This document shows, piece by piece, positions 53,184-55,245 of a stretch of DNA of 64,000 bases (positions are counted from its first letter, which is position 1; each line of letters begins with the position of its first letter). The notes beneath the pieces were generated by a model. It saw only the letters and a program-made list of their open reading frames with translations, had not been told where the DNA came from and searched no databases. This DNA is from Pseudanabaena mucicola str. Chao 1806 (GTDB lineage: Bacteria; Cyanobacteriota; Cyanobacteriia; Pseudanabaenales; Pseudanabaenaceae), in NCBI RefSeq assembly GCF_030323025.1, contig NZ_CP097329.1, positions 1,953,001-2,017,000 of the forward strand. Reading direction: 5' to 3'. Position numbers and translations under genes: made by a program.

Positions 53184-53836
53184 GGAGGTATCTAATTATT
53201 ACGTTCTGTTAACTTAGCATTTTAACCGTGACTCTCTTCACATCGCAATAAAATCTTGCATGAACAAATTTACCAAATTTACAAATTTGTGGTATTTCTT
53301 TTAGCCACGCAACAAAAAATCTGATCTCTTAATTTTGCGACCCTTCTCTAAATTAACATCACTTCTTGTTTAGCTAATAAAGCTTGTGGCACACGCAGAG
53401 CGTATATCACAGATTTTTGCTCTGATTTTCTTTGCTCTGATTTTCATTGATGCATATCTACTTACAGCACTTTACGCGGTAGTCCTAAATAAGGAAAGAA
53501 TTTATTGTAGTAAGGATGGGCGGCGCTTTGCGCCAGCAGCACAATTACATTGTTACATTGTATGACTACTGAGGTTTCCAATCTAGTGAAGTACAGAGAA
53601 TTGTTTGAAAAGCACTATGGGCATTATGTCGAAATATATTTTAAAATTAACTTTAATTTCGTACTTAAAATAGAAGCGCAAACATAACTTTATTCTTTGA
53701 TCTATTTAGGGATCTATTTAGGGATCTATTTAGGGATCTATTTAGGGAGAGTTGTCGGGGGATGTGTCATTCAATATTCGGCTGAAAATCGCAAAAATAT
53801 AATGTCTACAGTAGTTAATTGAGTGGTTAAAAGATT
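53184..53836. other. 653-bp intergenic region upstream of the phycobilisome-fold gene
   Basis: A repeat related to those at 51911-52076 lies at about 53475-53625 (AGCAGCACAATTACATTG, TGTTTGAAAAGCACTAT). A 12-bp tandem repeat occurs at 53699-53746. The region from 53750 to 53836 should contain the promoter. No gene is seen. Confidence 0.6.
53699..53746. repeat. Four exact tandem copies of GATCTATTTAGG
   Basis: Four identical 12-bp units in direct order, with no spacers, 90 bp before the start of the phycobilisome-fold gene. Such short iterated units can bind a regulator or vary in number by slippage. Confidence 0.9.
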
Positions 53837-54307
53837 ATGCTAACTATGAACCGCACTTTAGATGAGAAGACGAGTGAAGTTGAACATGTTTATCTCACTG
53901 ACATTGACATTTTTAATTTAGAGTGTTTTGCCAATACCTTTTCATTGCGTGTTATGACCTATGGTCTATTGCGCGATCATGCTGAAGAAATCACGATCAG
54001 GACTCTTAAACTCTTGGCACAGCAATATCCTGTGTTGGTAAACAAGCAATTAGCTCGTTGCGAATATGACATGAACAGTGTGATTCGATACATATCACTA
54101 TCCATCTTGCGTGATGACGAGCTGTTCTTCCGAGAAACCTTGATGGATTGGTTGGCAAATATCATTAATTCCTATCAAGTTGCGAAAGAATGCTGTACTT
54201 GCTATCGGCTAATGCAAACGGTTGTTGGTGAGGTGCTTCCTTCTGAATGTGCAATGTTAGTTAAACCCTATTCTGATCTAGCTATTTCCGCATTAATAAA
54301 CGCTTAG
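53837..54307 (+). CDS. Divergent phycobilisome (phycobiliprotein-fold) domain protein
   Basis: 156 residues, close to the 161 of allophycocyanin subunits. The pattern fits PF00502: helices around ITIRTLKLLAQQYPVLVN, the bilin site LARCEYDMNSVIRYISLSIL (Cys75, Asp78, Arg84), then FFRETLMDWLANIINSY and LPSECAMLVKPYSDLAI. In known subunits the motif is C-x-R-D-M; here Cys and Asp remain but the Arg is Tyr. Three more cysteines (119, 120, 122) cluster later. It could be an accessory phycobiliprotein, an ApcD/ApcF paralogue, or a bilin-associated globin. No other phycobilisome gene is near. A 12-bp tandem repeat lies upstream. Confidence 0.72.
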   Translation: MLTMNRTLDEKTSEVEHVYLTDIDIFNLECFANTFSLRVMTYGLLRDHAEEITIRTLKLLAQQYPVLVNKQLARCEYDMNSVIRYISLSILRDDELFFRETLMDWLANIINSYQVAKECCTCYRLMQTVVGEVLPSECAMLVKPYSDLAISALINA

Positions 54308-54378
54308 TAAGTAAACGCTTAGTAAGACACTTCATTTTTGTTATATATTGGGATTCTCAACATTGTGTTAACTTCCCC

Positions 54379-55245
54379 ATGGAACGAGTCTTACAGGAAA
54401 TTGGGAGATCGCCTTTAATTATTGCCGAGATTATCGTTAGCTTTATCTTGTTTTGGATTGGACAATTTGTTTATCAAAGGTTCTTTCGACGCAAACTGGA
54501 ACTCAATGTTGAGCTATTTGTGCGCGACAATTCAGCAGTTGCTGTAGCACTAGTTGGTTACTATTTAGGCATTGCGATCGCTCTTAAAAGTGCACTCACC
54601 AAATCAGTCTTAGGCTGGCAAAATGTAGTTGTTAATCTGGTGCTCTATGGAATATTGGTTATTGGCTTGATGTGGGTCGGTGCTGTAGTATGCGATCGCC
54701 TAATTTTGCAACGCTGTGATAGTGCTAGAGAAATTCTGGAAGAACGTAATTTCGGTGCAGCAGCCCTCGAATCAGGTTGTCACATTGCTAATGGCATTAT
54801 TATTAGTTCAGCGATGGGGGGAGATTCGGGAACTTGGTTAGTGGGCTTGGTTAGCTATGCGATCGGTCTAGCCACATTGGTAATGGCTAGTTTTTGTTAC
54901 TCAGTGATCGCAGGTTATAGGGTATTTAAAGCAATTCAAGAACATAATAATCCTGCGGCTGGAGTTGCCTTTGCGGGTATGCTAGTGGCGATCGGTAATG
55001 TCGTGCATTTTGCCTTCTTACCTGAGTTTGAGAATTGGGGCATTAGTTTTATTTTGTATGGCTTATCTATCCCTTTTGGAATATTGATGCTCATTGCAAT
55101 TCGCTGGATTGCCGATCTTATTCTTGTCCCAGGGGTCAAAATTTCCGATGAAATCGTGAGGCAGGAAGTTCCCAATCTTGGTGCAGGATTAATTGAAGCT
55201 TTTGCCTATATTGCAGGCTCATTGCTGATAGTGTGGAGTATTTAA
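54379..55245 (+). CDS. DUF350 family membrane protein
   Basis: 288 residues with about eight membrane helices in two similar halves. Motifs of the DUF350 (YjfL) family: DNSAVAVALVGYYLGIAIAL, then EHNNPAAGVAFAGMLVAIGNVVHFAFL in the second half. Function is uncertain; some relatives are implicated in envelope stress. It starts 71 bp after the phycobilisome-fold gene on the same strand, so they may share a transcript. Confidence 0.85.
   Translation: MERVLQEIGRSPLIIAEIIVSFILFWIGQFVYQRFFRRKLELNVELFVRDNSAVAVALVGYYLGIAIALKSALTKSVLGWQNVVVNLVLYGILVIGLMWVGAVVCDRLILQRCDSAREILEERNFGAAALESGCHIANGIIISSAMGGDSGTWLVGLVSYAIGLATLVMASFCYSVIAGYRVFKAIQEHNNPAAGVAFAGMLVAIGNVVHFAFLPEFENWGISFILYGLSIPFGILMLIAIRWIADLILVPGVKISDEIVRQEVPNLGAGLIEAFAYIAGSLLIVWSI

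Follow-up and report, generated by a model that had tools for sequence, protein, structure and literature searches.

Sequence comparison places the small globin encoded at positions 53837-54307 of the window (the whole 64,000-nucleotide stretch of Pseudanabaena mucicola DNA analysed here) in a distinct, non-antenna subfamily of cyanobacterial bilin-type globins that, in unrooted trees, groups with the BBAG-type globins. In relatives, conserved gene order and co-occurrence show a dedicated phycobilisome linker, encoded just downstream, with which the globin would normally work. The linker gene has been cleanly deleted in this species, while the globin remains under purifying selection. The subfamily, here called family A, is a widespread and apparently undescribed branch of phycobiliprotein-like globins outside the antenna proteins. 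The features of the globin locus are:

53837..54307, + strand: family A bilin-type globin (PF00502), 156 aa (profile match, alignment, AF2 model, Foldseek)
54059..54070, + strand: C75-E-Y-D78 motif, counterpart of the bilin-attachment C-x-R-D (alignment and counts over 65 relatives)
54191..54202, + strand: C119-C120-T-C122, of which only C119 is a family-wide feature (counts over 65 relatives)
53699..53748, no strand: 12-bp tandem repeat GATCTATTTAGG x4.2 upstream of the globin (repeat search)

The 156-residue protein matches PF00502 over nearly its full length (E 2.3e-13, 50.8 bits, cut-off 22.2). Its AlphaFold2 (AF2) model is entirely helical (pLDDT 86.7, pTM 0.81), and the top solved matches to this model in Foldseek are allophycocyanins and other phycobiliproteins, with TM of about 0.8. 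By sequence only, the match to solved structures is weak (best E 6e-4, allophycocyanin beta-18). The phycobiliprotein-like fold proposed in the original prediction, which had been made from the DNA letters, is borne out by both the profile match and the helical model. The bilin-site motif reads C75-E-Y-D78-M and is followed by R84, so that the Cys, the Asp-Met pair, the Arg and the Tyr replacing the motif Arg are all as predicted. R84 aligns with an Arg that we take, from phycocyanin structures, to lie at the alpha-beta interface and not at the bilin. An identical protein is encoded in a metagenome-assembled genome (MAG) of the genus Pseudanabaena. The GATCTATTTAGG repeat ends about 90 bases 5' of the globin start; a second assembly of the same species (L041) has one copy fewer, and the related locus L085 has none.

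Profile scores across 291 cyanobacterial genomes are graded between globin groups. Family A was defined as scoring at least 160 bits (76 genomes) and its sister group A2 as scoring 120-160 bits; most V4R-cluster (BBAG) and WKxD (class C) globins score lower still. All such counts depend on these thresholds and on a sample that includes MAGs; beyond the window, the gene calls are simple ORFs. Orthologs of the window protein are 68-87% identical across most of the genus and about 30-45% identical in many other cyanobacterial families, and they are mostly encoded in single copy, without a paired alpha/beta partner gene. Cys75 and Asp78 are present in 65/65 family A proteins, and R38, Y42, W105 and Y123 are likewise invariant. 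Residue 77 is Tyr in 60 of these proteins; 4 have Phe and 1 has Arg, whereas 17/18 A2 globins have Arg at this position. The Tyr that had been read as an oddity of one protein is therefore a family signature, C-x-Y-D-M, which the window globin carries; peculiar to the window protein among 65 relatives is the Glu at the second motif position. The CCxC residues noted earlier at 119-122 are present, but only the first is conserved (C119 62/65, C120 2/65, C122 3/65), and a metal-binding cluster was dropped, C120 and C122 being lineage quirks. No PHROG match pointed to a phage family for the globin. The A2 globins (L120-L123, L126-L134, L080, L073) keep C-x-R-D, have no conserved neighbour and reach two copies per genome in the family coded f13.

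In an 81-row tree, a long branch (support 100/100) parts the antenna phycobiliproteins from all non-antenna globins. Family A forms one clade (100/94), as do the V4R-cluster globins (100/99), which were recognised by their V4R and 2Fe-2S neighbour genes, as for slr0144-slr0149; the grouping of A with A2 is weakly supported (81/69). The antenna/non-antenna split recurs in a larger, quickly built tree to which the phycobiliprotein domain of ApcE was added. Both trees are unrooted and cover cyanobacterial globins only. The window globin falls outside the antenna clade, on the side of the BBAG-type (slr0149-like) globins, though outside the slr0149-type clade itself. A terminal emitter akin to ApcA-F, one of the roles suggested originally, is contradicted by this 100/100 branch from all sampled antenna phycobiliproteins.

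Family A can be set against two known groups. With antenna phycobiliproteins such as allophycocyanin it shares the fold, the bilin Cys and Asp, an acidic residue and a Tyr near the N-terminus, and the Arg after the motif. It differs from them in the Tyr that replaces the motif Arg, in its separate clade and in having neither a PGGNAYTTRR-type loop nor a paired subunit gene. With the cyanobacterial BBAGs of slr0149 type (Rockwell et al. 2023, PMC10151467) it shares PF00502, a place on the non-antenna side of the tree and a short loop before the motif. However, slr0149-type genes lie beside V4R and 2Fe-2S genes, as in the slr0144-slr0149 cluster (PMC10151467), and their products have lost the Cys, whereas family A has retained C-x-Y-D, stands as a clade of its own and has a linker partner. 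No V4R/2Fe-2S cluster surrounds the window globin gene; that cluster lies elsewhere in the genome, at 2.18 Mb, with a BBAG-type globin of its own, a second odd PF00502 protein. The bilin Cys has been lost in both the WKxD and the V4R-cluster clades, so bilin binding is not universal on the non-antenna side of the tree.

The next same-strand gene in most of the family A loci fetched encodes a protein of 225-450 aa with a PF00427 domain, and this globin-then-linker order is seen in loci of 14 family codes. The protein has one PF00427 domain, or two in some Pseudanabaena, and a tail with the pattern C-x2-G-x-C, in which C180, G183 and C185 (numbered as in the L059 protein) are invariant; the Cys pair is absent in a few members outside the alignment, e.g., L068 and L070. 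The model is confident in the domain, whose fold matches phycobilisome linkers, and moderate in the tail. Domain and fold are shared with ApcE, CpcN, CpcC and CpcG, and CpcN and ApcE are the nearest solved sequences. However, the domain forms its own clade (100/99) against the ApcE repeats, CpcG-like and rod linkers of this genome, and the linker is further set apart by its unique tail and by its usual place beside a globin. Searches of open-licence papers found no description of the globin-linker pair. The two-domain form (430-450 aa) arose by duplication in several Pseudanabaena, e.g., L085 7810-9120, while others have the single-domain form.

Scored with a tail-only profile, the linker is present in 85/291 genomes. 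Globin (A or A2) and linker occur together in 83 genomes, the globin only in 12, the linker only in 2 and neither in about 195 (Fisher 7e-57, the counts being partly dependent on ancestry). Within-family tests, done to limit the effect of shared ancestry, gave p values of 1e-5 to 9e-10 for the families f13 (both 21, globin only 2, linker only 0, neither 18), f16 (16, 1, 1 and 19) and f24 (10, 1, 1 and 15). Co-occurrence also holds where the two genes are unlinked, and f13 genomes that have A2 only retain the linker at an unrelated site. Four genomes have an unlinked linker close to phycobilisome genes: near cpcB with rod linkers and/or cpcD (L203 and L204), near cpcB (L208) and near cpcB with pebA/pebB (L202). 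Together, co-occurrence and these locations connect the linker to phycobilisomes and, by way of the linker, the globin too. Because the globin co-occurs with a linker of this kind, a role in association with phycobilisomes is favoured over the bilin sensor or carrier put forward earlier. The linker is not indispensable, since 12/95 globin genomes, including that of the window, are without it; some of these are real exceptions, as G152 is a single contig. The genome behind L207 (G104) is one of only two with a tailed linker and no A/A2 globin over threshold. Two associations were considered and dropped: one with phycoerythrin, as at least three FDBR genes are if anything rarer in genomes with the linker (20/85 vs 82/206), and one with replacement of OCP, as only G007, G039 and G048 among the 85 linker genomes are without a Carot_N match.

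In the close relatives L085, L091, L092, L042 and L043, the gene order is globin, linker, DUF350, while in the window the DUF350 gene starts 71 bases past the globin stop. An intact terminator follows the linker in L085 (9118-9164), and window positions 54318-54400 align by BLAST with L085 from 9139 onward, that is, from the middle of the terminator hairpin. An alignment that starts there indicates that the deletion removed the linker and left one arm of the terminator. The junction has two features:

54297..54326, no strand: 15-bp tandem duplication (TAAACGCTTAGTAAG x2) where the linker was deleted, spanning the globin stop codon (repeat and junction comparison)
54318..54345, + strand: terminator remnant of the linker gene, right arm and T run (BLAST to L085)

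What is missing between the globin stop and the terminator remnant is the linker gene, about 1.4 kb with its flanks. The junction recurs in L041, the other assembly of this species, with 5 differences over 1409 bases. Relocation of the linker was rejected: a genome-wide profile search left no linker of the C-x2-G-x-C type, and only ApcE and ordinary linkers were found. The globin had been described as an orphan, but its family has a dedicated linker partner, which this species and a few other lineages have lost. That no other phycobilisome gene is near holds for the window (the nearest PF00502 gene is about 43 kb off, outside it) and fails for the family, in which the usual next gene is the linker. 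Similarly, the adjacency of the DUF350 gene was correctly observed, but it is an unlikely partner, because it became the neighbour through the deletion and stands behind the globin-linker pair in just a few close relatives.

In comparisons with the window, the dN/dS of the globin is 0.05-0.14. From pairwise values, the dN of the window branch is about 0.046 for the globin, compared with 0.026 (DUF350) and 0.018 (the ABC gene), i.e., about 1.6-2.6x that of neighbouring genes, and any relaxation of constraint in this lineage is mild at most. Deletion of the linker together with purifying selection on the globin would imply either a linker-independent role or a recent loss of the partner. That the gene is simply widowed and heading for loss in this genome seems unlikely: the clean deletion, the raised dN and the private Glu in the motif speak for it, but the ORF is intact in two assemblies, dN/dS is still low and every invariant residue is kept.

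The reading that best fits the data, and which we judge to have about an even chance of being right, is that the protein is a globin outside the antenna group, probably carrying a bilin, which attaches to the phycobilisome via its dedicated linker and persists here without it. The PF00427 domain of the linker would insert into a phycocyanin or allophycocyanin disc, and the linker, through a putative direct contact, would recruit the globin to rods or core. The globin would carry a bilin attached covalently to Cys75 and held by Asp78, and Tyr77 would change the contact that the Arg makes in antenna proteins. The unit may then act as a phycobilisome accessory, in assembly, repair or local quenching, rather than as an antenna pigment. 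Characterised BBAGs bind bilins, attach them without lyases and fluoresce weakly, with a yield of 3-7% (PMC10151467); this low fluorescence makes a quencher or non-emitting accessory plausible. A role in assembly or repair is about equally plausible, because the products of the slr0144-slr0149 cluster reportedly form a complex that acts in photosynthetic repair (PMC9880817). More specifically, and only tentatively, the pair might be an undescribed accessory module in which the Cys-pair-tail linker brings the non-antenna bilin globin to rods or core; there it could serve as a quencher or assembly checkpoint that depends on bilin but neither on OCP nor on phycoerythrin.

The same resemblance to the slr0149-type globins, with which family A groups and whose cluster has the reported repair role (PMC9880817), is what recommends a phycobilisome or photosystem assembly or repair factor that no longer uses bilin, like the photosystem-associated Slr0144-Slr0149 proteins. 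It is nonetheless an improbable account, as Cys75 and Asp78 are absolutely conserved in family A, whereas the Cys is gone from the slr0149-type and WKxD clades. A genuine minor antenna subunit, which would assemble around its own linker and pass excitation on as a terminal emitter or as a phycobiliprotein capping rod or core, is quite unlikely. The fold, the invariant Cys and Asp and a phycobilisome-type partner, in some cases encoded among phycocyanin genes, would suit it; the position outside the antenna clade, the missing loop and motif Arg, and the mostly single-copy gene without an alpha/beta pair would not. Absence of the linker from 12/95 globin genomes and lyase-independent bilin attachment by characterised BBAGs (PMC10151467) would be expected of a soluble bilin sensor or carrier working without phycobilisomes, but the protein has no output domain, and genomes in which the two genes lie far apart still retain the linker, which makes this explanation very unlikely.

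With the phycobilisome-docked globin as the preferred reading, family A would add a testable accessory component of the phycobilisome in about a third of the sampled cyanobacterial genomes, and the natural deletion of the linker in this species offers a ready-made comparison. It has been proposed that antenna phycobiliproteins evolved from bilin globins found in non-photosynthetic bacteria (PMC10151467). Lying outside the antenna clade, keeping the bilin Cys and being tied to a linker, family A could represent an intermediate or a parallel recruitment of globins to linkers.

Further globin forms were seen among the loci compared. Some Pseudanabaena carry a second, linker-less globin lineage (L084 and L088, from G008 and G017), about 49% identical to the window protein; this second form is without C119, and G017 carries both forms. 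The V4R/2Fe-2S cluster often holds two PF00502 globins, one of slr0149 type without the Cys and one of W-K-x-D type (L138 4928-7001, L137 and L139), and in L079 (7295-8262) the second cluster globin keeps C-I-Q-D.
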